Positions 2,631 through 35,838 of a stretch of DNA of 40,879 bases are shown here, piece after piece. A model generated the notes under the pieces. The model was not told where the DNA came from, made no database searches, and saw only the letters and a list, made by a program, of their open reading frames with translations. The position numbers and the translations under genes were made by a program. Position 1 is the stretch's first letter, and each line of letters begins with the position of its first letter. Source of the stretch: Alphaproteobacteria bacterium (GTDB lineage: Bacteria; Pseudomonadota; Alphaproteobacteria; SMXS01); assembly GCA_030836535.1 (NCBI GenBank), contig JAURPT010000171.1:1-40879 (forward strand), read 5' to 3'.

Positions 2631-2656
2631 GCGCTGACACGCTTTGCAGGTTGGTG

Positions 2657-2729
2657 TTTCTGGGGAGGAACATCAGCCTGCCGACCGGGTCGTCCCGGTC
2701 ATCTTAGGGGCTTGCCAGAAATGTTCCTC
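2657..2729 (+). repeat. Interleaved inverted repeats in the leader of the RND gene
   Basis: The 142-bp gap before the RND exporter holds three perfect complementary pairs: TTTCTGG (2657-2663) with CCAGAAA (2715-2721), GAGGAACAT (2665-2673) with ATGTTCCTC (2721-2729), and the hairpin GACCGGG-TCGT-CCCGGTC (2683-2700). The first two pairs interleave in the order a, b, a', b', which is the topology of a pseudoknot or of two alternative stems enclosing the central hairpin. No U-run follows, so it is not a simple terminator. Confidence 0.55.
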
Positions 2730-2772
2730 GGGGTAAAGTGGTCACCATATTTTAGTCTTGGGGGTCTTTGAT

Positions 2773-13942: not shown

Positions 13943-13994
13943 CCGGCATTCACCATAACCTCTTACAGTGGGCGCATCCGCGCCGGGAAACACA

Positions 13995-15377: not shown

Positions 15378-15380
15378 GGA

Positions 15381-20195: not shown

Positions 20196-20996
20196 CTAGA
20201 GAATGGGGCCAATAATCCCCAGCTGTGCAGCCTTTGCGACGGCCTGTGTGCGGGTGACGGCGTCCAATTTTTTGGCCGCGTTGGCGATATGAAAGCGTGC
20301 TGTTGTGTGGGATACGTCGAGGATCTTGCCGATTTCCTGGTCGCTCTTGCCCTGGGCCGCCCAGGTCAGGCATTCGATTTCACGTTTGGTCAGGTAGATA
20401 AAACCGGTACGCGGGGGTTCAGGGTCACGTGCGCGGCGTATGACGTCCATAAAGTGCAGACCCGCCAGTGTCAGCGGATACTGATATGCATCCAGTTTTT
20501 CCTGCAGGTTGATGTCGGCATCGTAGCTCAGCCACGTGACTGAACCAATGCGACCCTTTGCCAAATGGGTGGGCATGGTGATGCCGCCAGATATGCCAAG
20601 AGCAGCCATCTGCTCCATGGTTTTCATCTGTAGCGGTTCAATGTCGATGGCGACCGACCATGTGCCATTGCAGTACCAATAGAACGGCAAATGTTCGAAC
20701 CGGGAGGCATGGCTGACGGCGCTGACCAATGTCAGGCTCTGTTCGACCCACTGATCGATAAATTCCGTCGGCCAGCCGAAGGAATCTGCCAGTCGGTTGC
20801 CCTCTTCATCTGTGAGCGGAACGGTGGTTGAAATGTCATCCAGCACAGCAACAAGCGGCAGGCCAATCACATTGCCAATGTCGCGCAATATCTGGACGCC
20901 CTCGGCAATCGTTGGCCCATTGGCCAATTTTTCTAAAGTCTGCTCAAGGCGTTGCCTCGTCACATGGCTGCCGTCAGTGTTCACACTCTGATCCAA
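20196..20996 (-). CDS. LuxR-family transcriptional regulator (autoinducer-domain type)
   Basis: A regulator with a ligand-binding N-terminal domain and a C-terminal LuxR helix-turn-helix: [20 protein letters not shown] then [20 protein letters not shown] and [15 protein letters not shown]. The N-terminal half resembles acyl-homoserine-lactone-binding domains in the segment [20 protein letters not shown] followed by LPFYWY, but the Asp-Pro that contacts the ligand in LuxR and TraR is replaced by Ser-His. No luxI-type synthase is in the window, so this is a solo receptor, maybe for another ligand. The TTG at 20996 follows a GGGGAA site; the frame is open to 21074. A 14-bp palindrome at 21092-21105 lies just upstream. 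Confidence 0.83.
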
Positions 20997-21091
20997 CGAA
21001 TTCAGTTCCCCAATAGTGCCCTGGCTGTAAAACCGGCCATGATCACCGCCACAATATAGCCCCAAGCGTATCAATCGGAACAGGGTATTAG

Positions 21092-21105: not shown

Positions 21106-21183
21106 ATCAGCGTAGTAGCGATTCGAAAGGCGCTAAGGTAAAGTCACGCCTGCTGATACGGGAAACGCGGGAAATTGAACCTG

Positions 21184-21687
21184 ATGCTCCAGCTGGTTGA
21201 TCCAGAACAGAGGCCGGTCCATTGGTATATGGATGTCCGGATGCCTGTGGACGAGCTATCGGCTATCTTTGCGGATTACCGCAATGTCAGTGAGTGGTGG
21301 CCGGATAAAAATACCCGCTTCGACTTTATCGGCGACGGTATCGGGATGATCCGCAATATATACCCGCCGGGTGGCCTGATGATCAGCCAGCGGCTGGATG
21401 CAATCGACGAAAACCAGCGGACGATCACGGCGACATTCCTGAATTCCGAGGAATATGGCATGAAGGACTTTCAGGGCACCATGAAGGCAACAGACTTGGG
21501 CGATGGATGGTCGCGCCTTACCTATATGGCAACCACCAAGACAGCTCCCGATGTGCCGCACAGCATGCGTATTGCAGCTGTCGAAGGTTACCTGGCCGGT
21601 TTCTACGCCAGTCTCAAGGCCCAGCTTGAAGGCAACGGCATCGAGGCGCTTAGTGCGGGCCGGCTGGAAATGAAAGAAGACGTGTAA
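21184..21687 (+). CDS. SRPBCC-like protein of unknown function
   Basis: A 167-residue protein with the look of a Bet v1/START (SRPBCC) fold: ADYRNVSEWWPD near the N-terminus resembles the usual early helices, GIGMIRNIYPPGG and ISQRLDAIDENQRTITATFL form strands, and the C-terminal amphipathic helix is AAVEGYLAGFYASLKAQLEG. Such proteins bind hydrophobic ligands or act as cyclases. The frame starts at ATG 21184 after GGGAAA at a rather long spacing; a TTG at 21175 is possible. It is divergent from the LuxR-type gene and 68 nt before the CoA-transferase gene, so it may be under that regulator. Fold assignment is by pattern only. Confidence 0.7.
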   Translation: MLQLVDPEQRPVHWYMDVRMPVDELSAIFADYRNVSEWWPDKNTRFDFIGDGIGMIRNIYPPGGLMISQRLDAIDENQRTITATFLNSEEYGMKDFQGTMKATDLGDGWSRLTYMATTKTAPDVPHSMRIAAVEGYLAGFYASLKAQLEGNGIEALSAGRLEMKEDV

Positions 21688-21755: not shown

Positions 21756-22967
21756 ATGACGGATACCAAGCCGGGGCCGCTCGACGGCGTCAAAATCCTC
21801 GACCTTTCAACGGTTCTTCTGGGTCCCTATGCGGGCCAGATCATGGGTGATCTGGGCGCAGATGTGATCCGTGTCGAATCTCCTGCAGCCGACGTCACAC
21901 GCTGGTCCGGCGACATGACCGCCCCTGGCATGGGGTTCTTGTTTCTGGGCGCAAATCGGAACAAGCGCTCTTTGTGCCTCGACCTCAAGCAGGATGGCGC
22001 AAAAGACATCCTGATTGGCCTGATTAAAGAGGCGGATGTGCTGCTGCATAATATCCGGACAGAGGCAATTGAGCGCCTTGGTTTCGGGTACGAAGACGTC
22101 AAGGCGATCAAGGAAGATATTGTCTATGTCCATGCTGTCGGCTACGGCAGCGATGGCCCTTATTCAGGCCAGCCCGCCTATGACGACCTGATCCAGGCAG
22201 CCGGTGGCGGTATGATGCTGGGTGAATACATCGATGGCGATGAAGACCCGACCATGATCCCCACACTGGTGGCGGACAAAACATCTGGCTTGCACTGTGC
22301 TTATGCGCTGTTGGCCGCCCTGTTTCACCGCGAACGGACGGGTGAAGGCCAGTATGTAGAAGTCCCCATGCTGGAAAGCTTTGTGTCCTTTCTGATGATG
22401 GACCATATGGGCAACCGCATTTACGAACCTGAACGCGGCATTCCCGGCTATCACAAGGTCTCCAACCCGAACCGGCGGCCCTACAAGACGTCCGATGGCT
22501 ACATCTATATCATGCCATTCGGTGAAAACGCCTGGGCCAAGATTTTCGAGATTGGTGATTCCCACATCCAGCCGGATGACCCTATGTTCTCCAACATGGA
22601 GCAGTTGATCGCCAATCTGCAGACGATCTATGCGGCCATGCACGCTATGACGCCCCAGAAGACGACCGATGAATGGTACAAGCTTTTGTCAGAAGCCGGT
22701 GTGCCGGTGATGTATGTAAACCGCATCGACGAACTGATGGATGACCCACACTTGCAGGCTGTGAATATGTTTGAAAGCAGGCCGCATCACCGGGAAACGG
22801 GATACATTTCCACCAAGCAGCCGATCAAGTTCTCGGAAACACCGGCGTCAATCCGTCGTGACCCGCCAGGCATGGGCGAGCACAACCAGGAAATCCTGCG
22901 CGAGCTGGGCTATTCGGATGAAGACATTGCCGATATGGAAGCCCGCAATGTCGTGGTGAAGATGTAG
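21756..22967 (+). CDS. CaiB/BaiF family CoA-transferase
   Basis: A complete class III CoA-transferase of 403 residues. It opens PLDGVKILDLSTVLLGPYAG and has LGADVIRVESP, LGANRNKRSLCLDL and ADVLLHNIRTEAIERLGFGY in the expected order. The catalytic Asp that forms the aspartyl-CoA intermediate is in PAYDD, Asp143. These enzymes move CoA from a donor acyl-CoA to a carboxylic acid such as carnitine, bile acids or 2-methylacyl derivatives; the acceptor is not known here. A CoA ester made here could feed the crotonases at 914 and 1851. The stop codon is separated from the opposing EthD gene by one base. Confidence 0.93.
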   Translation: MTDTKPGPLDGVKILDLSTVLLGPYAGQIMGDLGADVIRVESPAADVTRWSGDMTAPGMGFLFLGANRNKRSLCLDLKQDGAKDILIGLIKEADVLLHNIRTEAIERLGFGYEDVKAIKEDIVYVHAVGYGSDGPYSGQPAYDDLIQAAGGGMMLGEYIDGDEDPTMIPTLVADKTSGLHCAYALLAALFHRERTGEGQYVEVPMLESFVSFLMMDHMGNRIYEPERGIPGYHKVSNPNRRPYKTSDGYIYIMPFGENAWAKIFEIGDSHIQPDDPMFSNMEQLIANLQTIYAAMHAMTPQKTTDEWYKLLSEAGVPVMYVNRIDELMDDPHLQAVNMFESRPHHRETGYISTKQPIKFSETPASIRRDPPGMGEHNQEILRELGYSDEDIADMEARNVVVKM

Positions 22968-22968
22968 C

Positions 22969-23661
22969 CTATTCGTCTTCCGCCAGACCGGGCCAGAAGA
23001 CCCGGTTTTCATCGACAAACATGGCGTGGGTAGCTTTGGTATCCAACAGATTAGCGCGGTCGGCCTTTTTTGGGGCCCCGCGTTTGTCCTTATTGAAAGC
23101 GGCTTCTGTGTCCCACCACAATTCTTCCGCGCCGTCATAGAGCGCATCGCCCCCTTCATAGGCGCTTGGCAGCGTGGGTGACCGCACAAAGCGCTTTAGA
23201 TTCTCTCCCTTGGAAAAGAGTGGTCCATCCAACGCCAACCACTGGTCATGGAACTGCTCGTGCGTCAATGCCGGGTTGCGCTTCACGAAAAACAGCACTT
23301 TAACGAGCTTGTCCTTCTCGGCGATCGGGTCGCCGTCAATGATGACATACTCGCTGGCCATGATTCCTGCGGAGCGTTCCCGCATAAAGGCTGGTTCATC
23401 GATATAAGCACCATTCATATATTCAGGCATGGTATTCAGCACACGGGCAGCGTCTGTATCCTGCAGCCATACTTCCGGGCTGCCATCGCAGGGCGCGTCA
23501 AAGCCCGGATAGGCCTTGGCGGCTTTGTGGTTTTGGACATAGCGGCGCATCACCGGCACCAGCGTTAACGCATGCACGGCGTGTGGGCCGCTCCAATGTT
23601 TATGAAACTGGCGTTGGCTGATGTCGCTGCGCTTGTTCAGCATGCCGAAAACTTTGATCAT
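22969..23661 (-). CDS. Two-domain EthD-like protein
   Basis: A 230-residue protein with two EthD-like (dimeric alpha+beta barrel) units. The first shows IKVFGMLNKRSDISQRQFHK with HWSGPHA near residues 2-27; the second shows VKVLFFVKRNPALTHEQFHD near 120-140. Each has the strand-loop-helix and the FHxxW pattern. EthD proteins are associated with ether and aromatic degradation and are thought to act as small ferredoxin-linked or isomerase subunits, although the reaction is not settled. I chose ATG 23661 because AGGGGG precedes it by 7 nt; the frame is open to 23688. It is convergent with the CoA-transferase gene. Confidence 0.82.
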   Translation of the reverse strand: MIKVFGMLNKRSDISQRQFHKHWSGPHAVHALTLVPVMRRYVQNHKAAKAYPGFDAPCDGSPEVWLQDTDAARVLNTMPEYMNGAYIDEPAFMRERSAGIMASEYVIIDGDPIAEKDKLVKVLFFVKRNPALTHEQFHDQWLALDGPLFSKGENLKRFVRSPTLPSAYEGGDALYDGAEELWWDTEAAFNKDKRGAPKKADRANLLDTKATHAMFVDENRVFWPGLAEDE

Positions 23662-23939
23662 GAATGGTCCCCCTGTGGTCTTCCCCAAGACTGGTTAGTC
23701 AGCATGAACGACGCGTGTGCGTGCTGCAATGCGAAATCTTCAGAGAGGTATTGCGGGAATCGCCGTTTCCGTTTGCTTTTGGCTTGCCAATCCGAAAACC
23801 CGTGCCCACTATCTTCCAGGGGAATTTTTGGGAGTAAAGGGATGCCGCTTTGGGCGCGCCTTACGGAACACACCGCCGATAGCAGTATTGGCGCATATCA
23901 TCCGCGGCAAAAAACAGCCACCACGGGCGGAGGTTGTCG
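23662..23939. other. Intergenic region before the four-symporter array
   Basis: A 278-bp stretch separates the divergent EthD and first GPH genes. It contains a perfect dyad TTGGC-TT-GCCAA at 23779-23790 and no convincing protein-coding frame. The dyad is a possible regulator site; promoter boxes are not clear. Confidence 0.4.
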
Positions 23940-25334
23940 TTGACTGACTCAGCAACGCGCTTGAAGCCGCGCACTCTTATTGCCTATGGGATTTCGGACC
24001 TGCCGGTGATGTTAGCCAACATCCCGATGATGCTGTACCTCAATGCGTTCTATGCGAAGGACTTTGGTCTCGACCTTGTCGACATGGCCAATATGCTGCT
24101 TTTTGCTCGCGTGTTTGACCTGATCACTGATCCATTAGTGGGTTACCTATCGGACCATACGAAGACACGCTGGGGCAGGCGCAAGCCCTGGATGGTGGCT
24201 TCGCTGCCTGTTCTGGTTCTTGGCCTTTATCAGGTGTTGGTGCCGTCGCCAGACGCTGATCTCTGGTATCTCGTGGGGTGGATGATAGTCATGCAGCTTG
24301 GCTGGACCATGCTGATGATCCCTTACTACGCCTGGGGGGCCGAGCTTTCCAAAAACTATGACGAACGCACCCGTATTGCCGGCTGGCGTGCAGGCATGGG
24401 CTCGGTCGGCCAGCTTATTGCCATTGCCTTTCCGTTTATTTTCGGGTTGCCGCTCTTTGTCGATATGGGCTGGGGGCTCACCGGCTTTGCAGACATCCTG
24501 CGGGTAACGGCCTATGCGGCTGTCATTCTGGTGCCCTTGTGCGTGTTCACCACAATTTGGCGGGTCAAAGAAGCGCCGAATGCGGGTGGGTCGGCTATGG
24601 AGATGATGGACGGCCTCAAGGTCATGGCCAAAAATGGCTCATTCCGATGGCTGGTGATTACTTTCATGCTGTCGAGCCTGGGGCTGGCGGTGATGATGCC
24701 GATGAACGCTTTTTATGTAACGGCGGTGCTGGACGTACCGCAAATGCTGGTGCCGACTGTCATGTTCTTTGGCACCTTTGCCGGTCTACTTGGCCTGCCG
24801 TTCTGGATGGCTATTTCAAAACGCTTTGGCAAGCACCGGGCCTGGATTGGCGGTCTTCTGTTTGTGACAGCTTTTAGTCCCATGTATCTGTTTTTGGGGC
24901 CGGGCGACTTCTGGTACATGGTGCCTTTTGCGGTTATCAGTGCCTTTGGCACGGGCTCCTTCATGGCCCTGCCCAATGCCATGAAGGCCGATGTGATTGA
25001 TATCGACACGGCCCGCACGGGTGAAAACCGGGCGGCCATGTTCTTCTCTGCCTGGTCGCTGACCTCTAAGGCGGCGTCCAGCCTGGGTGGCTCTCTTGGC
25101 CTTTGGGCGCTGGCGCTGGTCGGGTTTGACGCGACGTTGGGTCCGGCCAATTCGGCGGATGCCCTGATGGGCCTCAAGTTGGTCTACGTGTTCCTGCCTG
25201 CGATTATCTTCGTGACGGCGGGCATCATTATCTGGAAATACCCTCTCAACAAAGAGCGTCAGGAACGTATCCGCGCGGCGATTGATCGTCGGCAGGAGCG
25301 ATGTACCCAGGCTGCTGTGCAATTGGCTGAATAA
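23940..25334 (+). CDS. GPH-family sugar/cation symporter, array gene 1
   Basis: A 464-residue 12-helix transporter of the glycoside-pentoside-hexuronide:cation family, the MelB-like branch of MFS. Helix 2 carries FDLITDP (Asp60, Thr63, Asp64), matching the cation-binding Asp-Asn-Asp helix of MelB with Thr for Asn. Further family blocks are DHTKTRWGRRKPWM, IPYYAWGAELSKNYDERTRI with AGWRAGMG, and MKADVIDIDTARTGENRAAM. It should co-transport a sugar, sugar acid or similar molecule with H+ or Na+. I use the TTG at 23940, 6 nt after GGAGG. It leads a four-gene array; the next start is 2 bases after its stop. Confidence 0.93.
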   Translation: MTDSATRLKPRTLIAYGISDLPVMLANIPMMLYLNAFYAKDFGLDLVDMANMLLFARVFDLITDPLVGYLSDHTKTRWGRRKPWMVASLPVLVLGLYQVLVPSPDADLWYLVGWMIVMQLGWTMLMIPYYAWGAELSKNYDERTRIAGWRAGMGSVGQLIAIAFPFIFGLPLFVDMGWGLTGFADILRVTAYAAVILVPLCVFTTIWRVKEAPNAGGSAMEMMDGLKVMAKNGSFRWLVITFMLSSLGLAVMMPMNAFYVTAVLDVPQMLVPTVMFFGTFAGLLGLPFWMAISKRFGKHRAWIGGLLFVTAFSPMYLFLGPGDFWYMVPFAVISAFGTGSFMALPNAMKADVIDIDTARTGENRAAMFFSAWSLTSKAASSLGGSLGLWALALVGFDATLGPANSADALMGLKLVYVFLPAIIFVTAGIIIWKYPLNKERQERIRAAIDRRQERCTQAAVQLAE

Positions 25335-25335
25335 A

Positions 25336-26718
25336 GTGTCTGAACAAAAGTCTGGCCGCATGCGCCGTTTTTCGAACGCGACCCTGTTTGCCTATGGGGC
25401 GGCGGATATTCCGGTCATGCTCGCATTGATGCCCATGAGCATCTACCTCAACCGGTTCTATACGGGCGACATCGGGCTTGCCATTTCTGCTGTTGCCAAT
25501 GTCATGTTGTTCTCGCGGGTTTTTGACGCCATCACTGACCCGCTGGTCGGTTATCTCAGTGACAACACAAAGTCGCGCTGGGGGCGGCGCAAACCATGGA
25601 TACTCGCCTCGGTGCCCGTCCTGATGCTGGGCATCTACAAGGTCTTTATGCCGCCTGAAGGGGTTGGAATCTGGTATCTGTTTGGCTGGCTGACGGTGAT
25701 GTGGGCGGGCTGGACCATGCTGATGATCCCCTATTATGCATGGGCCGCCGAATTGTCAGACAATTACGATGAACGCACACGGATAACCGGTTGGCGCGCA
25801 GCTATGGGTGCGTTCGGGCAATTGCTGGCGCAGGCAATCCCGCTGATTGCCTTGCTGGTGTTCAGTTTCGGCGGCACTGCAAATGTGATGAGTCTGCTTG
25901 GTGTCGCCGCGGTGGTTCTGATACCTACCTGTGTCGCGCTGACATTGTGGAAAGTGCCGGAATATCCGGAAATCAAGGCCCCGCAGGTCCCTTTGCTGAC
26001 GGGGTTGAAAATGATGTGGCAGAATGGCCCATTCCGCATACTCGCCATGGGGTATGTGCTTGGCTATATCGGCCTGTCGATCACCATGCCGCTTTATATC
26101 TTCTTTGTGGAATTCATCCTTGAGCGCAGCGCGGCAGATGTGCCCTACATGCTTGTTATTGCAACCTCTGCCGGCATTCTGGGCGTGCCGTTATGGGTCA
26201 AGATTTCGGCAACGATCGGCAAACACAAAGCCTGGCTGTGCGGCTTTTTGTTCGTGTCCGCCATGCAGCCAATCTACCTGCTTTTGGGCCCCGGTGACTT
26301 TTGGTATATGGCGCCGATGGTTTTCATCATTGGTATGGGCACCGGGTCTTTCCAGGCCTTGCCCAATTCCATGAAGGCAGATGTCATCGACCTCGACACA
26401 GCGCGAAGTGGCCAAAACCGGGCCGCTTTCTTCTTTTCGGCCTGGTCATTCATCACCAAATCGGCGGCAAGTATAGGCGGCTGGTTCGCGTTGCAAAGCC
26501 TTGCCTTGTTTGGCTTTAATGCACTCAATGGCGCCGAAAACACCCCTGAGGCGCTGCTGGGCCTCAAGCTGACGTTTTCTGTACTTCCTGTTTTGTTTTT
26601 TCTCGCTGCTGCCGCCGTTATCTGGAAGTTCCCCATCACCAAAGAACGGCAGGCACGTATCCGAACGGCCATCGACAAGCGCCAGGAGAGACGCGCAGCA
26701 GCAGCTGCCGCGGAGTAG
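25336..26718 (+). CDS. GPH-family sugar/cation symporter, array gene 2
   Basis: A 460-residue GPH symporter, the closest relative of array gene 1: both have YLN-FY in helix 1, FDAITDP here at 63-69, TKSRWGRRKPWILAS, NYDERTRITGWRAAMGAFGQ and LPNSMKADVIDLDTARSGQN. The best start is GTG at 25336, one base after the preceding stop; ATG 25360 is an alternative. It has the cation-site aspartates and Thr67 in place of MelB Asn58. It is almost certainly translated from the same transcript as its neighbours. The substrate is not predictable from sequence alone. Confidence 0.92.
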   Translation: MSEQKSGRMRRFSNATLFAYGAADIPVMLALMPMSIYLNRFYTGDIGLAISAVANVMLFSRVFDAITDPLVGYLSDNTKSRWGRRKPWILASVPVLMLGIYKVFMPPEGVGIWYLFGWLTVMWAGWTMLMIPYYAWAAELSDNYDERTRITGWRAAMGAFGQLLAQAIPLIALLVFSFGGTANVMSLLGVAAVVLIPTCVALTLWKVPEYPEIKAPQVPLLTGLKMMWQNGPFRILAMGYVLGYIGLSITMPLYIFFVEFILERSAADVPYMLVIATSAGILGVPLWVKISATIGKHKAWLCGFLFVSAMQPIYLLLGPGDFWYMAPMVFIIGMGTGSFQALPNSMKADVIDLDTARSGQNRAAFFFSAWSFITKSAASIGGWFALQSLALFGFNALNGAENTPEALLGLKLTFSVLPVLFFLAAAAVIWKFPITKERQARIRTAIDKRQERRAAAAAAE

Positions 26719-26733
26719 GAGCCCAACCGGATT

Positions 26734-28152
26734 ATGTCTTCAGCACCCTCTACCCCAACACGCCTGTCTAACAAGACGCTTTTCTTCTACAGTCTGACAG
26801 AGCTGCCATTGATGATGGCGCTGTTCCCGGTGATGGTGTTCATCCCGAAATATTACACGACCGAAATGGGCGTGGGCCTGGCGCTGGCAGGTAATATCAT
26901 CCTGACGGTCCGCATCTTTGATATTTTCACCGACCCGTTAATCGGTGTGTTAAGCGACCGGACCCGAACCCCCTGGGGCCGCAGACGGCCCTGGGTATTG
27001 GCGTCCATGCCGCTGCTGGTGGCCGGGTTCTACCTGCTGTTTGTGCCGCTAGAGGACCTTAGCCTGCTGACGGCCATGCTGCCGGCCGAGATGGCCACGC
27101 GTGAATATACCAGTGGGCTTTATATGTTCCTGTGCATGGTACTGCTGTCAGTCGGGGCGACCATGATCATGATCCCCTACTGGTCTTGGGGGGCAGAGCT
27201 ATCGCCAGACTATAATGAGCGCACGCGCATCACCGGTTGGCGCGCCGCATTTGGTGTTGGCGGATCACTGCTGGCGCAATTATTGCCGATTCTTGCCGGT
27301 ATCTTTTTTGGTCTGCAGGGTGATGAGGCCGTCCTGATTGTGGTTGGCACCGGCATGCTGGTGACCATGCCCATCTGTATGATCCTCACCGTCTGGATGG
27401 TGCCGGAAAACAAGAATTTCGTCAGCGCCTATACGCCCCTGCTGGAGGGCTTGCGGCTGATGATGAAGAACAGCCCGTTCAAAAAGTTGATCATGGCTTT
27501 TGCTTCCAGCAGCACCGGGCTGACAATTACAACACCGCTTTATGCCTTCTTCATCGCCTTTGTGTTGCAGGACACGACCAGCACCATCTACATGCTGTCG
27601 ATCTTCTATTTGGTGAATATTGCGGCCATCCCGATATGGGTGCGGATCTCGCAAAATATTGGCAAGCGTAGCTGCTATATCACCGCCTTTGTCATCATTT
27701 CGGTTGTGCACCCGTTCTATATGTTGTTGGGGCCGGGTGATATCTGGTGGATGACACCGGTCACCATCATGACCGGCTTTTGCGCAGGCGCATTCAATGC
27801 CCTGCCCAATTCCATGAAGGCGGATGTGATTGACCTCGACACCCTGGAAAGTGGCGAAAATCGTGCCGCTTCTTATTTTGCGACTTGGTCGTTCACGACA
27901 AAGATTGTCAATGCAGGCGGTGCGTGGCTGGCGCTGAATGGTCTGGCCCTCACCGGGTTTGACCCACAACTGGGCGCCGGCAATTCTGAGGAACATTTAA
28001 TGGGCCTGCGGCTGATGTTTGCTGTGATCCCGTCGGCATTTTATCTACTGGCGGTGGCCTTCATCTGGAACTACCCAATTACTGAAGAATATCACCAGCA
28101 GGTGCGGGATGAATTGGACCGCCGGGACGCGGTGCCGGAACCGGCGCAGTAG
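26734..28152 (+). CDS. GPH-family sugar/cation symporter, array gene 3
   Basis: A 472-residue GPH symporter that is closer to gene 4 than to genes 1 and 2. It begins with IPKYYTTEMGVGLALAGNII and has DIFTDP at 63-68, DRTRTPWGRRRPWVLAS, YWSWGAELSPDYNERTRITG and MKADVIDLDTLESGENRAAS. A polar stretch of about 20 residues near 105-130 (EDLSLLTAMLPAEMATREYT) is present here and in gene 4 but not in genes 1 and 2. It starts 15 nt after gene 2. Predicted to carry a sugar-like solute with H+ or Na+; substrate unknown. Confidence 0.93.
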   Translation: MSSAPSTPTRLSNKTLFFYSLTELPLMMALFPVMVFIPKYYTTEMGVGLALAGNIILTVRIFDIFTDPLIGVLSDRTRTPWGRRRPWVLASMPLLVAGFYLLFVPLEDLSLLTAMLPAEMATREYTSGLYMFLCMVLLSVGATMIMIPYWSWGAELSPDYNERTRITGWRAAFGVGGSLLAQLLPILAGIFFGLQGDEAVLIVVGTGMLVTMPICMILTVWMVPENKNFVSAYTPLLEGLRLMMKNSPFKKLIMAFASSSTGLTITTPLYAFFIAFVLQDTTSTIYMLSIFYLVNIAAIPIWVRISQNIGKRSCYITAFVIISVVHPFYMLLGPGDIWWMTPVTIMTGFCAGAFNALPNSMKADVIDLDTLESGENRAASYFATWSFTTKIVNAGGAWLALNGLALTGFDPQLGAGNSEEHLMGLRLMFAVIPSAFYLLAVAFIWNYPITEEYHQQVRDELDRRDAVPEPAQ

Positions 28153-28164
28153 GAGCAGGGATCG

Positions 28165-29568
28165 ATGAAACAACCGCCTGAGCGTCTGTCCTGTTGGCAA
28201 CTGTTCTGTTATGGCCTCACGGATATGCCGTTGCATTTCGCGCTGACACCGGTGCTGATCTATGTGCCGAAATATTACGCCGCAGAGCTGGGCGTCAGCC
28301 TGGCGCTTATCGGTACGATATTGCTGATTGCCCGCATATCCGATGTGTTTACTGACCCGCTGATCGGCTATTGGAGCGACCGCACGCGCACGCGCTGGGG
28401 CCGTCGGAAACCCTGGATTGTCGCGGGTATGCCGCTGCTGACGGTCAGTTTCTACATGTTGTTCCTGCCGCCGGATGACCCAGCGGTACTGGCGGAATAT
28501 GTCAGCTTTGTCTCGCTCGAGAACCTGTTCACGCTCTATCTCTTTGTAGGGATCATGGGGGTCTATCTGGCGATGACGATGATCCTGATCCCCTATTATT
28601 CCTGGGCGTCGGAGTTGTCGCCGGATTACCGCGAACGGTCGCGCATCACCGGTTGGCGTTCTGCCATCGGGGTGGTGGGCAACCTGGCAGCCCAGGGCGT
28701 CCCGATCTTTTTCCTGTGGGCGTTCGACTATGGCGGCGACAAGGCGATCATGACCATTCTGGGGGTCATGATGGTGATTACGCTACCGCTGGGCACTTAT
28801 CTGACCGTTACCCAAGTACCGGAGACGCAGGATTATGAGGACTCGCGCACATCCCTGCGCGACGGGTTGCGACTGATGTGGCGCAATGGCCCGTTCAAGC
28901 GGCTGGTCACGGCGCTGATGATCGGCATGACTGCCTTCAACATCACCACCCCGCTTTATTCTTTCTATGTCGGCTTCGTGTTGGGCGCGCCTGAGATGAT
29001 GGTCGTGATGCTGTTCTTCTTCTATGCCTGCAATATTGCCGGCGTGCCGTTCTGGGTGTGGTTGTCCAATCGCATTGGCAAGCATAAAGCCTATTCAGCC
29101 AGTTTCATCACCATTGGGCTCGTGAACCCGCTCTACATCTTCCATGGCTGGGGTGACTTCTGGTGGATGATCCCAATCACCATTGTCTCTGGCTTTGCCG
29201 CGGGTGCGTTCGCGTCCCTGCCCAATTCCATGAAGGCAGATGTTATCGACCTTGATGAAATGATGAGCGGCGACAACAGGGCGGCGTCCTTCTTTGCGAC
29301 ATGGTCATTCACGTCAAAAATGGCCGCCGCACTGGGTAGCAGTGTATCGATGTATCTGCTGGCGCTGATTGGCTTTGATCCGGAACTGGGTACAGATAAT
29401 GCCTATGAGCACATGCTCGGCCTGCGCCTATTGTTCACCATGCTGCCATCGTTATTCTTTTTCTGGGCGGCTGCGATTGTCTGGAATTACCCGATTACCG
29501 AGGCGCGCCATGCCCGAATGCGCGACGCCCTGCAGCGGCGGATGGATAGAAGAGCGGCAAGCGCCTAA
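28165..29568 (+). CDS. GPH-family sugar/cation symporter, array gene 4
   Basis: A 467-residue GPH symporter pairing with gene 3: VPKYYAAELGVSLALIG, DVFTDP at 60-65, DRTRTRWGRRKPWIVAG, the inserted loop DDPAVLAEYVSFVSLENLFT near 105-125, YYSWASELSPDYRERSRITG and MKADVIDLDEMMSGDNRAAS. It starts 12 nt after gene 3, giving a tight array with no other gene inside. The C-terminal WNYPITEARHARMRDALQRR matches the same region of all four. The convergent SDR gene on the opposite strand ends 20 nt downstream. Confidence 0.93.
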   Translation: MKQPPERLSCWQLFCYGLTDMPLHFALTPVLIYVPKYYAAELGVSLALIGTILLIARISDVFTDPLIGYWSDRTRTRWGRRKPWIVAGMPLLTVSFYMLFLPPDDPAVLAEYVSFVSLENLFTLYLFVGIMGVYLAMTMILIPYYSWASELSPDYRERSRITGWRSAIGVVGNLAAQGVPIFFLWAFDYGGDKAIMTILGVMMVITLPLGTYLTVTQVPETQDYEDSRTSLRDGLRLMWRNGPFKRLVTALMIGMTAFNITTPLYSFYVGFVLGAPEMMVVMLFFFYACNIAGVPFWVWLSNRIGKHKAYSASFITIGLVNPLYIFHGWGDFWWMIPITIVSGFAAGAFASLPNSMKADVIDLDEMMSGDNRAASFFATWSFTSKMAAALGSSVSMYLLALIGFDPELGTDNAYEHMLGLRLLFTMLPSLFFFWAAAIVWNYPITEARHARMRDALQRRMDRRAASA

Positions 29569-29587: not shown

Positions 29588-30364
29588 CTACGGCACAACG
29601 CCTTCCATGCTGGTGACGGTGTTGTCGACCACCATTTCTGCGCCATTGGTGTATTTGCTTTCGTCGGAGGCCAGATACAGCACCATATAGCCAATATCCT
29701 GCGGTTCACCTGGTGTGGTGCCGGTGATGGGCGGCTTAAAGCGCTCATCAGCATCCAGGGCTGCCTGTACGACAGGGCCAATATTGGTTGTCATCGGTGT
29801 CACGATCCCGCCCGGATGAATGGAGTTTACCCGGATCTTGTCGCCATTCTGGGCGCAGTGCACGGCGGCGGCCTTGCTCATCAGGCGGACCGCGCCTTTG
29901 GCCGCCGCATAGGCAAACACGTAAGGCACGCCGACAATCCCGGCGGTTGACGACATGTTGATGATGGAGCACATCTCGTCGCTGTTTCGCATGGCGGGGA
30001 TGGCGTGCTTCATGCCAAAGAATGTCGCATCTTCCGAGACAGCTTTGGTCTTGCGCCATTCTTCTTCGGTACAGGTTTCGACATTGCCGGGGATCACGAT
30101 GCCCGCATTGTTCACCAGTACATTCAGCTTGCCATATTTGCCGACGACATAGTCGATCAGCTCAATCCACGGTGCCTCAGCTGTCACATCCATGTGGTAA
30201 TACTCGGCGCCAATGTCGGCTGCGAGCGCCTCACCGGCTTCATCGGCAATATCGACAATGATTACCTTGCCGCCTTCGCGGGCCAGCAGACGGCAATCCG
30301 CCTCGCCCAGCCCCATGGCACCGCCGGTGACGATGCAGACTTTTCCTTTAACACGTCCTGTCAT
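29588..30364 (-). CDS. Short-chain dehydrogenase/reductase (SDR), NAD-type
   Basis: A 258-residue classical SDR. The cofactor loop TGGAMGLG is at 13-20, Asp38 at the end of strand 2 indicates NAD rather than NADP preference, NNAG is at 85-88, and the catalytic set is Ser139, Tyr152 and Lys156 (YAAAK). It oxidises an alcohol or reduces a ketone in the cytoplasm, with steroid, terpenoid and sugar alcohols as typical substrates. It is the last gene of the minus-strand operon that begins near 32916; the VOC gene lies 24 nt upstream. Confidence 0.94.
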   Translation of the reverse strand: MTGRVKGKVCIVTGGAMGLGEADCRLLAREGGKVIIVDIADEAGEALAADIGAEYYHMDVTAEAPWIELIDYVVGKYGKLNVLVNNAGIVIPGNVETCTEEEWRKTKAVSEDATFFGMKHAIPAMRNSDEMCSIINMSSTAGIVGVPYVFAYAAAKGAVRLMSKAAAVHCAQNGDKIRVNSIHPGGIVTPMTTNIGPVVQAALDADERFKPPITGTTPGEPQDIGYMVLYLASDESKYTNGAEMVVDNTVTSMEGVVP

Positions 30365-30388: not shown

Positions 30389-30934
30389 TCAGGCGCCGGG
30401 ATTGCGGACATCCCACAAGCGCCGGTCTGTTTCTTTTTCGTAGCCTTTCCCGTTGGGAAAGCTGATCAGTTCCATCTGCATATCCCATGGCGTCAGGAAA
30501 TAGCAGGACCGCAGCCCTGCTTCGGGTCCCTGCGTGCCTGCAGGCCCGCCGCCATTCATCAGGCGCACCCCATGGGCACGCAGATGGTCCATGGCAGCAT
30601 CGATATCATCTACATAGAGCGTAATGTGGTGGCCACCCCAGTCGCTGTTTTGCGGCATGGTCTGGCGTTGTTCGGGCGCAGAATATTCGAACAGCTCAAT
30701 ATTCGGTCCGTGTCCGGCTCGGAAAATCTGCACTTTTTCAATGACGGCACGAGGGTGGACATTCAGCATGTCCTTCATCCAGTCACTGTCCTCGGATCCG
30801 TAAGGGCCGTGCAGGTAGAATTCTTCAAACCCCAGCACGTTCACCAGAAAATCCCGTGCCTCTTCAAAGTTTGGGACGGTGACGCCGATATGGTCGACCC
30901 CGCGAAAGCCCGGCAGGCCTTTCTTTTCCCCCAT
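30389..30934 (-). CDS. VOC/glyoxalase superfamily protein
   Basis: A 181-residue protein with two vicinal-oxygen-chelate modules. The first begins GVDHIGVTVPNFEEARDFLV with HIGVTV as the classic opening strand and His as likely metal ligand, followed by IEKVQIFRAGHGPNIELFEY with Glu. The second starts GGHHITLYVDDIDAAMDHLR and ends MELISFPNGKGY. It may act as a dioxygenase, lyase or isomerase. ATG 30934 follows AAGGGGG by 4-5 nt; the frame is open to 30991 but that part lacks a site. It sits 19 nt after the phosphatase gene, third of the five genes in the operon from the upstream end being the phosphatase. Confidence 0.88.
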   Translation of the reverse strand: MGEKKGLPGFRGVDHIGVTVPNFEEARDFLVNVLGFEEFYLHGPYGSEDSDWMKDMLNVHPRAVIEKVQIFRAGHGPNIELFEYSAPEQRQTMPQNSDWGGHHITLYVDDIDAAMDHLRAHGVRLMNGGGPAGTQGPEAGLRSCYFLTPWDMQMELISFPNGKGYEKETDRRLWDVRNPGA

Positions 30935-30953
30935 GGTTCCCCCTTTTGCGGGC

Positions 30954-31532
30954 TTAGCCCACCTCTGTTTCCGCCTCGGTGCCCTTTTCAATCAATCGAA
31001 GCTCCTGGCCATTGGACTCGACAATTGTAATGGAACAATTGTCGGGCCGGAAGCCAACGACTGTATCATCCCCGATGAGTTGCCCAACAATGGCATTGAT
31101 CGCCACAAAGTGTGTGGAAACAATGGTTGGCTCGGTTAGCTCCAGCAGTGCGTCCACGGTGCCGCGCCGCCAGGCAGGTAAGTCATGCGGCTCGGTCGCA
31201 AGAGCAGGCTGGTCCGTCCACTTGCCTTCCATAATGGCCATTAGCCAACCACGCCGTTCGTTCAATGCCATGGAAGGCGAGGGAATTTCTGATATCCGCT
31301 CGTCGATCCTTGCCTTGGCCTGCCATTGTTCCTCAAAGGGCATGGCCGTTTCCTGGGTGCGGCGCATCGGGCTGGAGATGATATTCATGGGACCCAGTGG
31401 TGCCAGCTTTTGCGCGGCGGCCGCTGCCTGACCGTGGCCGGTCGGGCTCAAGCCGGGGTCTGTATCTTCTTCCCAGCTGGCGGCAGCCAGCCCGTGGCGA
31501 ACGAGATAGATCCTGTGCCACTCATTTGACAT
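30954..31532 (-). CDS. Histidine phosphatase superfamily protein
   Basis: A 192-residue protein of the phosphoglycerate-mutase-like histidine phosphatase family. The phosphohistidine motif is VRHGLAAA with His13, LSPTGHGQA follows, SSPMRRTQETA (about 53-63) holds the second substrate-binding arginine, and the C-terminal THF in IVSTHFVAINA supplies the second catalytic His. The usual catalytic Glu may lie in DERISEIP. Family members dephosphorylate sugars, proteins or small metabolites. It lies between the desaturase gene (29 nt upstream) and the VOC gene (19 nt downstream) in one operon, which is an unusual companion. Confidence 0.9.
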   Translation of the reverse strand: MSNEWHRIYLVRHGLAAASWEEDTDPGLSPTGHGQAAAAAQKLAPLGPMNIISSPMRRTQETAMPFEEQWQAKARIDERISEIPSPSMALNERRGWLMAIMEGKWTDQPALATEPHDLPAWRRGTVDALLELTEPTIVSTHFVAINAIVGQLIGDDTVVGFRPDNCSITIVESNGQELRLIEKGTEAETEVG

Positions 31533-31561: not shown

Positions 31562-32497
31562 TTATTCAGCGGCCTGCATGGCAACGGGTGCCAGCTCTTC
31601 TTCGGCTAGGGCGGGCTCGGTAATCGACTTGGCCCAGGCTTCCTTGACGCTGGCCGTTGTCTGGCGCGACCCGTCGGGCGACCAGCCTGGTGGGCCCATC
31701 AGAAACATGAAGATTTCTCGGCCAGACTTGGCCCCCCGGACATCCTGTATGATGGTGCCCCACTCAGCGAAGGCAATACGCAGGGGGTTGAAGCTGTTGA
31801 GATTACCCAAAATGCCATAGCGTGGCGGGTCTTCGGGGTCTTCTTCCACAAAGGTGCCAAACAGGCGGTCCCAGATAATCAAGACCCCGGCATAGTTGGA
31901 ATCCAGATATTTTGGGTTGGTCGCGTGGTGCACGCGGTGATGGCTGGGGCTGTTGAAGACCCACTCCAGCGGGCCAATACGGTCGATCAGTTCCGTATGT
32001 GGCCAGAACTGATAGACAAGGCTGACACCGTGGAAGAACAACACCATATCTGGTGGGAAGCCGATCAGGATCAGCGGCAACCAGAACAAAAAGCCCATCG
32101 ACATGAAGTGCGTCCAGGTTTGGCGCAGGGCGGTGGACAGGTTGAAGTGCTGCGACGAATGGTGCACGACGTGGCTGGCCCAGAACCAGCGGAGTTCATG
32201 CGAAATGCGGTGGTAGACGTAGTAGCACAGGTCCTCAGCAAAGAAGCAGAGTACAAAGACCCACCACTGATAGCCCATGTCAAACAGGGCGATGGAATTG
32301 GCGGCGCTGAATGTCCCGTAAACGGCGGCAACTGTTGCCCCGCCAATAATGGCATTGCCTAGGCCCATGGTCAGGCTGGCGGCCGTGTCGCGTGTTTCAT
32401 AGTCACCGCGCTTCAGGGCGCGCCACAGCATGATCTCGACGGCCAGTGCGCCAAGAAAGAAGGGAATGGCCAGAGGCACCATATCTGGGAAATTCAT
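31562..32497 (-). CDS. Fatty acid hydroxylase/sterol desaturase family protein
   Basis: A 311-residue integral membrane di-iron enzyme. It has several helices (about 5-25, 40-65, 80-95 and 130-155) and the histidine clusters YHRISHELR, HVVHHSSQHFN and HHRVHHATN that bind the two irons in this superfamily. Members insert OH or a double bond into fatty acids, sterols, carotenoids or ether lipids using oxygen. The substrate is unknown; the neighbouring SDR, P450 and GMC genes make a sterol-, terpenoid- or lipid-like molecule likely, as inference. Its start overlaps the stop of the small membrane protein gene by 4 nt. It leads into the phosphatase, VOC and SDR genes. Confidence 0.92.
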   Translation of the reverse strand: MNFPDMVPLAIPFFLGALAVEIMLWRALKRGDYETRDTAASLTMGLGNAIIGGATVAAVYGTFSAANSIALFDMGYQWWVFVLCFFAEDLCYYVYHRISHELRWFWASHVVHHSSQHFNLSTALRQTWTHFMSMGFLFWLPLILIGFPPDMVLFFHGVSLVYQFWPHTELIDRIGPLEWVFNSPSHHRVHHATNPKYLDSNYAGVLIIWDRLFGTFVEEDPEDPPRYGILGNLNSFNPLRIAFAEWGTIIQDVRGAKSGREIFMFLMGPPGWSPDGSRQTTASVKEAWAKSITEPALAEEELAPVAMQAAE

Positions 32498-32916
32498 GCC
32501 GGCCGCCCAATCATTGAAATGAATGTTTTGCGCCAGGCAGATTGCTGCTCTGCATCATCGAATGCAAAGTGCATATCGGGTGCCTTGTAGTCATGGGTTG
32601 AAACAACCAGGGTATTGTCGACCGATTCTACGTTGCTGATTTCGCCTTTGGACCATAGCCGGGTAATCAGCCGGTCCCCAAACCGGGCAATAGCCGCAAC
32701 GCGCCCCTGGTCGTCACGTGTAAGGGCAGCGTCTCCCTCACCGGTGATGGTCCAGTCAGCTATGCGCAGGAGCGGAAAGTCCTGTAGCAGCCGCCGGGTC
32801 GCACCTTCAGGGTCCAGCTTGGCCGGGCGTTTCAGCCCGCCGAAAAACCATGTCAGCGATACAATGGCGACAACCCCAAAGGGGGCGATGATCATTTGCC
32901 ATGACATGGCTGGCAT
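32494..32916 (-). CDS. Small membrane-anchored protein of unknown function
   Basis: A predicted 140-residue protein with one N-terminal membrane helix (about 5-26) and a soluble rest with charged, mixed strand and helix regions. I recognise no family. It overlaps the desaturase gene by 4 nt, a strong sign of translational coupling, so it may be a subunit or anchor of that enzyme. The start is uncertain: ATG 32916 or 32907, or TTG 32943 in the same frame, and no good ribosome site is present; a TATAAT element just upstream suggests a short leader. Confidence 0.7.
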   Translation of the reverse strand: MPAMSWQMIIAPFGVVAIVSLTWFFGGLKRPAKLDPEGATRRLLQDFPLLRIADWTITGEGDAALTRDDQGRVAAIARFGDRLITRLWSKGEISNVESVDNTLVVSTHDYKAPDMHFAFDDAEQQSAWRKTFISMIGRPA

Positions 32917-32932
32917 TTGAGAATATTTGTCA

Positions 32933-33017
32933 ATTATATGCAATGCCTAATTCTGCAGGGCTAAGGTGCCGGATTCGCGTGCTATTTCTTGCACCTGCAA
33001 AACGGCACGCCCATAAT
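32933..33017. promoter_or_regulatory. Divergent promoter region
   Basis: On the minus strand a perfect TATAAT (32933-32938) lies 17 nt before ATG 32916, with no clear -35 box. On the plus strand TTGCAC (32989-32994) and CATAAT (33012-33017) are separated by 17 nt and precede the methyltransferase start by 36 nt. These are reasonable promoter matches but not proven. Confidence 0.45.
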
Positions 33018-33052: not shown

Positions 33053-33928
33053 ATGAAGCATATTGAAGCAACAGGACCCAATGCAGACCAGATCGAGTTC
33101 TGGAACGACGCAGGGGGCAAGAATTTCGTCCGACATCAGGCCGGGCTGGATGCCATGCTTGGCGTTTTTGGCAATCGGGCAATGGAAAAGGCGGGCATCA
33201 AGTCCGGGGATGTTATCCTCGACATTGGCTGTGGCTGCGGCGACACCAGTATCGAGATGGCGCGCCGTGTTGGCCCGACGGGCGAAGTGGTCGGCGTCGA
33301 TATCTCGCAAATGATGCTGGCGCGGGCAGAGCATGTGGCCCAGCGCGCCGAGCTGACCAATGCGTTCTTTGAGCTGGCTGACGTTGAGACTGACCCACTG
33401 CATCGGGATAGTTTTGACCTCGCCTATTCCCGTTTCGGCATCATGTTTTTTGCGGACCCAGTTGCGGCTCTGCGCAATGTGCACAAGGTGCTGCATGAGA
33501 ACGGAAAACTGGCTTTTGCATGCTGGCAAACACTGGCAGAAAGCCCCTGGATCGCTCTGCAGGCCCAGGCAGTTGTACCGTTTTTGGCGGAAGAAGACTG
33601 CCCGCCGCCCGCTGACCCGGATGCGCCCGGCCCGTTTTCTTTTGGGGACCCGGTTCGCCTGCGGCAGACCCTGACAGATGCCGGTTTTACCAACATCGAG
33701 ATGGAGGACTTTGGCCCCGAGGTCGCCTTGTTTGGGCTGAAGAATATTGAAGACGTGCTCGACTTCGCGCTTGAAGTGGGCCCCGCGGCGACTTTCTTTG
33801 AGCTGATGGATGAACCAACGCAGGCCAAAGCACGTGAAGCTGTGCGCGAGGCCTATCAACCTTACATCACCGATGATGGTGTGATTATGAAGACATCTGC
33901 CTGGATTGTGACAGCCGACAAAGCCTGA
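33053..33928 (+). CDS. Class I SAM-dependent methyltransferase
   Basis: A 291-residue methyltransferase. Motif I is ILDIGCGCGDTSIEMA (about 60-75), the acidic end of strand 2 is VVGVDISQMM (about 84-93), and the post-motif SFDLAYSRFGIMFFADP (about 120-136) is typical of methylases of the UbiE/MenG-like group. It methylates a small molecule in the cytoplasm; the substrate is not identifiable. A TTGGGGGGAAG ribosome site sits just before the ATG. It is divergent from the desaturase operon and followed by two hydrolase genes after a 77-nt gap. Confidence 0.9.
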   Translation: MKHIEATGPNADQIEFWNDAGGKNFVRHQAGLDAMLGVFGNRAMEKAGIKSGDVILDIGCGCGDTSIEMARRVGPTGEVVGVDISQMMLARAEHVAQRAELTNAFFELADVETDPLHRDSFDLAYSRFGIMFFADPVAALRNVHKVLHENGKLAFACWQTLAESPWIALQAQAVVPFLAEEDCPPPADPDAPGPFSFGDPVRLRQTLTDAGFTNIEMEDFGPEVALFGLKNIEDVLDFALEVGPAATFFELMDEPTQAKAREAVREAYQPYITDDGVIMKTSAWIVTADKA

Positions 33929-34005
33929 AATTCGGCCTGATCAGGACTGGCCAGCCACCGGAATGTTTGCCATCTTGGCGCTACAGATTTCTTAGGGAGG
34001 AAAAG

Positions 34006-34920
34006 ATGACCGCTTCACCGCAAATGCAGGAAGTAATTGATATGCTGACGCCGGACCCCGATGCGCCGGTGGAAGGCCCCACCGTGCAGGGCATTCGCGA
34101 CATGATGTCTGGTGTGCTGATGCGGGTTGCAGACTTCCCGGAAGTGACGGTAGCCCCTGTTAGCGCTGGTGGCGTGCCTTGCGAATGGTTGGTGCACAAG
34201 GACGCAGACCCCAACAAGCGTGTGGTCTACCTGCATGGCGGTGGCTATGTGGCGGGTGACGTCAATACGCATCGGACATTCTGTAGCGACCTGTCACAGA
34301 CGGCTGGTGTTGCGGTGTTGAATGTCGATTACCGACTGGCGCCGGACCACAAGGCCCCTGCACAGTTTGATGACGGGCTGACCGCCTATAAATGGATGCT
34401 GGAAAACGGCCCGGATGGTGCGGGTGCGCCAACCCATTGCTTTGTTGCAGGCGATTCTGCTGGTGGTGGCCTTGCGCTGGCCGTGATCATGGGTGCGCGC
34501 GATGCCGGCTTGCCGGTACCTACGGCAGGTGTGCTGATATCTCCCTGGGCAGATATGCATATGGCGGGCGCAAGCTTTGAAAGCAATTCGCCGACCGACC
34601 CGATGGTCCAGAAGGGGGCACTGGAATGGATGGCCAGCCTGACCTTAGCAGAAGGTGCAGATCTGGATGATGCGCGTTGGTCTCCCATGCGTGGGTCGTA
34701 TGACGGCCTGCCGCCGCTCTTTGTGCATGTGAGCTCTATTGAAACGCTCTTGGATGATTCCACAGAAATTGCCGCGCGTGCCCAGGCTGCCGGTGTTGAT
34801 GTCATTATCGAGCAGGTGCCCGACGTTGTGCATGTTTGGCACGCGCTGGGCCGTGAGGTGCCTGAGGCATCAGCGGGTATTGATCGGGTGTGTGCGTATA
34901 TCCGTAGCCAATGCGGCTAG
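34006..34920 (+). CDS. HSL-type alpha/beta hydrolase, first of tandem pair
   Basis: A 304-residue hormone-sensitive-lipase-type esterase. The oxyanion motif HGGG is at 77-80 and the nucleophile Ser151 is in GDSAGG. The acid region reads SSIETLLDDS and the catalytic His lies in VVHVWH near the C-terminus. Some members of this family use Glu in the position usually Asp, as here. It hydrolyses esters or lactones. I place the start at ATG 34006 after AGGGAGGAAAAG; the frame is open upstream to 33967. The next gene is a paralogue 9 nt downstream. Confidence 0.93.
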   Translation: MTASPQMQEVIDMLTPDPDAPVEGPTVQGIRDMMSGVLMRVADFPEVTVAPVSAGGVPCEWLVHKDADPNKRVVYLHGGGYVAGDVNTHRTFCSDLSQTAGVAVLNVDYRLAPDHKAPAQFDDGLTAYKWMLENGPDGAGAPTHCFVAGDSAGGGLALAVIMGARDAGLPVPTAGVLISPWADMHMAGASFESNSPTDPMVQKGALEWMASLTLAEGADLDDARWSPMRGSYDGLPPLFVHVSSIETLLDDSTEIAARAQAAGVDVIIEQVPDVVHVWHALGREVPEASAGIDRVCAYIRSQCG

Positions 34921-34929
34921 GCTGGCCCC

Positions 34930-35838
34930 ATGCCCTCTGATTCCTTCAAAAAGGCGCGCCGACTTCTTCGTTTCGCGAAGGTGATGAACAAGTTATTGCG
35001 CCGCAAGGTCACGCCGCTGGGCCTGCGCGCCAATATGCAGCAGTCCATGCAGGGGCGTGAGCCCGAGGGCGTACGCTATGTTGAGGTTGATGCTGATGGC
35101 GTGCCGTCTGCCTGGTTGGTGCCGGAAGGCCATGATGGGCGTATCCGTGTGCTGCACTTGCATGGGGGTGGCTATACGGCAGGTGATATTCAAACCCACA
35201 GGGCCTATGCGGGGCATCTGGCCAAAGCATCTGGTGCGGCGGTGCTGGTGGCGGACTATCGCCTGGCGCCGGAACATGTTTACCCTGCTGCGCTGGAAGA
35301 TGGCTTGGCTGCCTGGCGGTGGATGGCGGCCAATGGGCCGGATGGCCCAGGGACTGCAGATCGCTTGATCATAGGCGGTGAATCCGCCGGCGGCGGGTTG
35401 ACGCTTGCGGTACTGATGGCCCTGCGCGATGCGGGTGAGTCAATGCCAGATGGCGCTTCGCTTCTTTCACCCTGGGCAGATTTGGTTGTGCAGGGCGAGA
35501 CCATGAAAACCCGGGCCAAGGCAGACCCGTTGGTGGCGCAAGAGTGGCTGCTGGCCTGTGCAGCCGCCTATCAAGGGGACACCGACCCGGCCACAACGGG
35601 TATGTCGCCAGTCTTTGGTGATTTTGCAGGGCTGCCGCCACTCGATATCCATGTCGGTGATGCAGAAGTATTGTTAGGGGACAGTCAGGTTGTAGCGGAA
35701 AAGGCCAAAGCGGCAGGTGTTGATGTGACACTCGAGGTATGGCCCGAAATGCTGCATATCTGGCAGGTGCTTTGGCCCACTATGCCCGAAGGTGCGGCTG
35801 CGGTTGAAAAAGCGGCCGCTTTCGTCAGGGCGGCATAG
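34930..35838 (+). CDS. HSL-type alpha/beta hydrolase, second of tandem pair
   Basis: A 302-residue paralogue of the upstream hydrolase: LHGGGYTAGDIQTHRAYAG in the oxyanion region, GESAGGGLTLAVLMAL with Ser as nucleophile, GDAEVLLGDSQVVAEKAKAA as acid loop and MLHIWQVLWP as His region. Two such enzymes side by side suggest different ester or lactone substrates, or a gene duplication under selection. No signal peptide is visible, so both are cytoplasmic. Ester or lactone ring opening would fit the catabolic theme of the region. Confidence 0.92.
   Translation: MPSDSFKKARRLLRFAKVMNKLLRRKVTPLGLRANMQQSMQGREPEGVRYVEVDADGVPSAWLVPEGHDGRIRVLHLHGGGYTAGDIQTHRAYAGHLAKASGAAVLVADYRLAPEHVYPAALEDGLAAWRWMAANGPDGPGTADRLIIGGESAGGGLTLAVLMALRDAGESMPDGASLLSPWADLVVQGETMKTRAKADPLVAQEWLLACAAAYQGDTDPATTGMSPVFGDFAGLPPLDIHVGDAEVLLGDSQVVAEKAKAAGVDVTLEVWPEMLHIWQVLWPTMPEGAAAVEKAAAFVRAA

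Follow-up and report, generated by a model that had tools for sequence, protein, structure and literature searches.

A four-gene GPH transporter array fills an enlarged slot of a conserved catabolic locus in an alphaproteobacterium

The four consecutive GPH transporter genes described here do not make up a transport system of their own but represent the enlarged transporter slot of an otherwise conserved catabolic cluster, and this enlargement of the uptake step is real and lineage-specific. The genes are located at positions 23940-29568 of the window, by which we mean the whole 40,879-nucleotide stretch of DNA that was analyzed, and which represents the entire contig C139 of an alphaproteobacterial genome assembly of 2.68 Mb (183 contigs, 96% complete). 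All four are complete PF13347 (MFS_2) genes, arranged head to tail on one strand and coding for proteins of 461-472 amino acids (Table 1). We suggest, with a probability of roughly one half, that the proteins use cation coupling to import several related organic acids or alcohols that are not sugars. The copies derive from separate older lineages that were brought together in the enlarged slot of the catabolic locus.

Table 1. The transporter array and the genes of the surrounding locus. Percentages are amino acid identities; G001 is a genome of the same genus as the window.
Feature	Position	Strand	Evidence and conservation
LuxR-type regulator with autoinducer-binding-like domain	20196..21074	-	PF00196 and PF03472; locus-conserved in the family
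SRPBCC / polyketide cyclase-like protein	21175..21687	+	PF10604; conserved in G001
CoA-transferase family III	21756..22967	+	PF02515, 341 bits; G001 82%, rest of family 55-59%, same position
EthD-domain protein, left slot border, divergent from copy 1	22969..23688	-	PF07110
GPH/MFS_2 transporter copy 1	23940..25334	+	PF13347, 297 bits; G001 orthologue 68%
GPH/MFS_2 transporter copy 2	25336..26718	+	PF13347, 305 bits; orthologue is the truncated second G001 copy, 75% over 149 aa
GPH/MFS_2 transporter copy 3	26734..28152	+	PF13347, 284 bits; insertion of 17 residues in the loop preceding helix IV
GPH/MFS_2 transporter copy 4	28165..29568	+	PF13347, 293 bits; 15-residue insertion in the same loop as copy 3
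SDR oxidoreductase, right slot border, convergent with copy 4	29588..30364	-	PF13561/PF00106; G001 88%, family 72-80%
VOC / glyoxalase-like protein, right flank	30389..30991	-	PF13669; G001 87%
Histidine phosphatase, right flank	30954..31532	-	PF00300; G001 76%
Methyltransferase, right flank	33053..33928	+	PF13847; G001 71%, family 53-57%

Analysis of the open reading frames and of the PF13347 matches, which extend from end to end of the model (positions 1 or 2 to 427 of 427, 284-305 bits, where the cut-off is 27), confirmed the four complete paralogues of the first-pass annotation, which are separated by only 1, 15 and 12 nt and are not interrupted by any enzyme gene. The likeliest start of copy 1 is the TTG at 23940, with a GGAGG 6 nt upstream, in a frame that is open from the TTG at 23934, and copy 2 starts at either GTG 25336 or ATG 25360. 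Copies 3 and 4 start at ATG 26734 and ATG 28165, both behind an identical overlap of stop codon and Shine-Dalgarno sequence, GTAGGAG, suggesting that they may be co-translated. Since the promoter scan revealed no credible site upstream of copy 1 (the single weak promoter-like match was on the minus strand, and shuffled sequences gave more), it is the close spacing that points to co-transcription of the four copies. Terminator-like matches numbered 15 against 6.9 expected, but nearly all were within genes and are hence uninformative.

A search for inactivating changes found no frameshifts or internal stops in the four copies, and the cation site is intact in each of them. The differences between copies 1, 2 and 4 and their orthologues were concentrated at third codon positions, with values of 0.27, 0.14 and 0.54 for the three positions of copy 1, indicating purifying selection. 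Taken together with the confident structural models of copies 1 and 4, this suggests that all four copies are functional.

The proteins of the window were compared with the DNA surrounding related transporters, which revealed a gene order that is common to the family: LuxR, CoA-transferase III, EthD (-), GPH (+), SDR (-), VOC (-), histidine phosphatase (-) and methyltransferase (+). The EthD gene is present once per genome in G001-G006, adjoining the GPH gene. Six genomes that belong to one genus (G003, G004, G006, G007, G008 and G009), all examined on both flanks, carry a single GPH gene between EthD and SDR; G005 was examined on the EthD side only. Two GPH genes occupy the slot in G002, from another genus, where a FAD-dependent oxidase-like ORF and a second ORF, both assigned by reading the sequence, separate EthD from the transporters. 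At least two are present in G001, the assembly of which is broken at the slot. One of its contigs (C86) extends from SRPBCC and the CoA-transferase through EthD (68%) and the copy 1 orthologue to the first 149 residues of the copy 2 orthologue, where the contig ends, and the rest of copy 2 is absent from the whole assembly. Another contig (C10) carries two hydrolases, the methyltransferase, the histidine phosphatase, VOC and SDR (71-88%) and ends 17-20 nt past the SDR gene. The breaks of both contigs thus coincide exactly with the transporter slot, as would be expected if a multi-copy array had failed to assemble there.

Several additional features of the locus were observed. Contig C86 of G001 (L133) contains a 923-aa ORF at 2032-4803 (-), between the CoA-transferase and EthD, that has no counterpart at this place in the window; from its sequence, it reads like a heme peroxidase with an autotransporter-like C-terminal part. 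The histidine phosphatase directly adjoins the methyltransferase in G001; in the window, the two are separated by genes for a fatty-acid hydroxylase and for an unknown protein of 149 aa (31562-32943, -). Two adjacent Abhydrolase_3 hydrolases follow at 33967-35838 (+); they are 45% identical, are conserved as a pair in G001 and both show weak matches to steryl-acetyl hydrolase (Say1). Another pair of neighboring transporter genes, both MFS_1, is located between a GMC oxidoreductase and a P450 at 13968-16733 (+); the two share 50% identity and are separated by 3 nt. The LuxR-type gene is a candidate regulator of the locus, possibly a LuxR solo that controls catabolism.

The gene neighborhoods provide information about the likely solutes. 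MMPL, fatty-acid hydroxylase-like and CoA genes are found near the array, and neither a glycosidase nor a sugar kinase is present among the annotated genes of the window. The families located near related GPH genes elsewhere include SDR, acyl-CoA dehydrogenase, luciferase-like monooxygenase, P450, Rieske, SnoaL and TonB, as counted from the 25 commonest families of each set, a tally that rare glycosidases would escape. The genome itself contains about ten CoA-transferase III genes as compared to a single GH3 gene. These neighbors and gene numbers favor the import of acids or alcohols for CoA-linked breakdown. The proposal that the array serves several related solutes is plausible. The glycosides that were included among its possible substrates find no support in the neighbors or in the loss of sugar-binding residues described below.

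Based on the conserved residues, each of the 12-helix proteins would couple the import of its solute across the inner membrane to the flow of Na+ (or H+) down its gradient. As solutes, we consider related and largely non-polar organic acids or alcohols most likely, such as cyclic, terpenoid or steroid-like carboxylates, which the products of the neighboring CoA-transferase III, SDR, P450 and beta-oxidation-type genes would then activate and oxidize. The copies accumulated where most relatives have a single transporter, and the four probably act by a division of labor, extending the range or improving the affinity of uptake, and not as a complex. Gene order by itself does not establish that the solutes taken up by the transporters are passed on to the flanking enzymes. 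A classical 9,10-seco route of steroid breakdown was also considered and set aside; the model of its ring-cleavage dioxygenase (TIGR03213), which is one marker only, had no match in G000-G002.

A bolder model, which we consider rather unlikely, is that the slot is swappable: the enzymes are fixed, whereas non-orthologous GPH genes, partly of gammaproteobacterial origin, are added or exchanged. The four copies would then belong to a non-sugar GPH subfamily, with each protein adapted to its own solute within a single family of hydrophobic acids.

The proteins could instead be ordinary GPH symporters for sugars or sugar acids, importing several glycosides, hexuronides or sugar acids, which we consider unlikely. 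This is what membership in PF13347 would suggest, given that the characterized or annotated bacterial GPH members (E. coli MelB, UidB, YagG and YihO) carry such compounds. Moreover, the model for YagG, a D-xylonate transporter, scored 120-169 bits on the copies, and MelB is a top structural match. Two results weigh against our own reading of acid or alcohol import: the scores for the NCBIfam model TIGR00792, named "GPH:cation symporter", were 190-218 bits for all four copies, below its curated cut-off of 231.35, and identity to any characterized transporter was only 18-23%. The residues of the cation site in MelB, Asp55 and Asp59 of helix II, Thr121 of helix IV and Lys377 of helix XI (PMC8329300), are retained in all four copies, in agreement with the first-pass annotation that both helix-2 aspartates are kept. 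The Thr that replaces Asn58 of MelB was also correctly noted in each copy, but it is not special, since it is found in 73 of 107 relatives, as well as in MFSD2A, YagG, YihO and YihP.

Against the sugar symporters, the galactoside-binding residues of MelB (PMC8329300) have been replaced, almost always by a small or non-polar residue: in copies 1 to 4, Lys18 corresponds to V/V/L/L, Asp19 to M/M/M/H, Asp124 to M/M/M/L and, in the multiple alignment, Arg149 to A/A/A/S, although this last column is alignment-dependent: when copy 4 and MelB are aligned as a pair with HMMER, a window-protein Arg falls close to it. None of the four copies fits the MelB galactoside-residue pattern, a weak argument in that the conservation of these residues is confined to MelB orthologues (PMC8329300). 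The pocket positions are mostly non-polar and differ between the copies, which would fit different non-sugar solutes. The lack of glycosidase and sugar kinase genes among those annotated in the window, and the single GH3 gene of the genome, also speak against sugars.

An importer of the MFSD2A type, which would carry lysolipids or other fatty, amphipathic compounds through the inner membrane to feed beta-oxidation, is quite improbable in our view. Among solved structures, the profile scored higher for MFSD2A (132 bits) than for MelB (94 bits), and the Thr at the cation site, the hydrophobic pocket positions and the MMPL, hydroxylase-like and CoA genes close by are all in line with lipid import. 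However, the identity to MFSD2A is only 19-22%, and it was placed with the outgroup rows of the tree, apart from the window clades, a weak placement given the deep branches. The AlphaFold2 models of copies 1 and 4 displayed 12-helix MFS folds (pLDDT 93-94; 93.8 for copy 4) and matched MelB (Z 40-42) and outward-facing MFSD2A (Z 39-40) about equally, such that the structural scores give MFSD2A no edge.

The ancestry of the copies was inferred with IQ-TREE from 62 proteins, of which many are MAG records, so that the organism names of single contigs are uncertain. Pairwise identity is 54% between copies 1 and 2, 50% between copies 3 and 4, and 40-44% for all other pairs. Copies 1 and 2 are members of one clade of 12 proteins (support 100/99), and copies 3 and 4 of another clade of 24 (100/98). 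Copy 1 is sister to copy 1 of G001 (99/94), followed by proteins of contigs binned as Myxococcales and Gammaproteobacteria, and copy 2 is sister to copy 2 of G001 (99/93), followed by two Pseudomonadales proteins. Copy 3 has no close partner in its clade, and none of the relatives in the compared set exceeds 56% identity to it. Copy 4 falls within a group of proteins from marine Gammaproteobacteria (98/91) and is 68-73% identical to proteins of their MAGs. The GPH proteins from the single-gene slots of the other genera group in a clade of their own (96/90). Plasmid origin was rejected, as plasmid-borne relatives are only about 29-32% identical.

The AU tests rejected each of four groupings: a single clade for the four copies and those of G001 (p = 2e-36), a clade made up of copies 1 and 2 and their orthologues in G001 (p = 2e-4), a sister relationship of copies 3 and 4 (p = 3e-8) and a common clade for every slot copy of the family (p = 7e-6). 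These results rule out recent tandem duplication, and together with the tree they suggest that the present array combines previously diverged transporters. The pairs 1+2 and 3+4 that were proposed from sequence similarity thus hold at the level of clades but not as sisters, and an expansion by duplication within the lineage is contradicted, since the copies belong to different clades with separate ancestry. Likewise, the shared loop insertion of about 20 residues was found, with 17 residues in copy 3 (window 27060-27120) and 15 in copy 4 (28480-28530), but was discarded as a marker of common ancestry for this pair: it is missing from the nearest relatives of copy 4, and an insertion of similar size is present in the same loop of three other clade members (L082, L091 and L062). 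The insertions may represent parallel gain or exchange between neighbors.

It could still be argued that the copies arose by in-place duplication in the lineage of the window and that the gammaproteobacterial genes were later copied outwards by transfer. The placement of copies 1 and 2 in one clade and of 3 and 4 in another agrees with this, as does the tandem of copies 1 and 2 that is common to the genus. However, several outward transfers would be required, the sister pairs are rejected, and copy 4 is located inside the gammaproteobacterial clade, a position that suggests lateral exchange in one direction or the other. We regard in-place duplication as an improbable explanation. Chance neighbors or an artefact of assembly or binning are hardly credible, even with a MAG in 183 contigs and a same-genus assembly that breaks at the slot, because both flanks are orthologous and in order in relatives, an identity of 40-54% is too divergent for a collapse or tandem-repeat artefact, and the GC3 of the copies (0.68-0.73) is close to that of the neighboring genes (0.62-0.69).

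We searched 240 alphaproteobacterial genomes for tandem GPH genes at E <= 1e-40. At least five other genomes (G057, G181, G129, G232 and G013) contained two same-strand matches no more than 300 nt apart, a lower bound given that up to about six candidates were scored per genome with the coordinates read by eye. Apart from the window's genome, runs of more than two were not seen among the matches listed for the 240 genomes, and the longest other run in 65 named contigs was the triplet of L094. Thus, no second run of four was found in the searched places of these genomes and contigs, and the open-access papers searched contained nothing relevant on GPH genes in tandem or on a role of GPH proteins in the catabolism of steroids or terpenes. 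The first-pass annotation was right that such an array is unusual, in that a four-gene run is rare, but not that it is transport-only, as it fills a slot of a conserved catabolic cluster.

GPH transporters are usually annotated as sugar carriers, and the proteins of the window are candidates for a non-sugar branch between MelB and MFSD2A, accompanied family-wide by CoA, SDR and P450 genes and with relatives in marine Gammaproteobacteria. The presence of one, two or four copies in the slot, which are not orthologous, offers a natural experiment in which uptake, rather than the enzymes, may set the substrate range of the pathway.

Among known systems, the melibiose:cation symporter MelB (TC 2.A.2) shares the 12-helix MFS_2 fold and the four cation-site residues with the window proteins, and differs in its Asn58, in its sugar-binding residues and by an identity of only 18-22%. 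MFSD2A, the Na+-dependent lysophosphatidylcholine symporter 1, is the best-scoring solved sequence and shares the cation site including the Thr, but is a eukaryotic lipid transporter. The other alphaproteobacterial arrays (the L090/G057 pair, the L094 triplet and the pairs of G129/G232 and G013) likewise consist of adjacent same-strand MFS_2 genes, some of which adjoin SDR, SnoaL and ECH genes; however, they have two or three copies at a different locus, and the members placed in the tree (L140 of G057, L083 and L094) belong to another clade of the family. The yihO-yihP genes in the sulfoquinovose cassette of E. coli also represent two adjacent MFS_2-type genes in one catabolic cassette, annotated for two related compounds of which one is imported and one exported (PMC12608037). 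YihO and YihP are 65% identical to each other, are flanked by sugar enzymes, have Thr in place of Asp55 and are 18-22% identical to the window copies, which are four in number and more diverged from one another. Thus, adjacent GPH genes are a known arrangement, and the novel part is the enlarged transporter slot with its non-orthologous copies.
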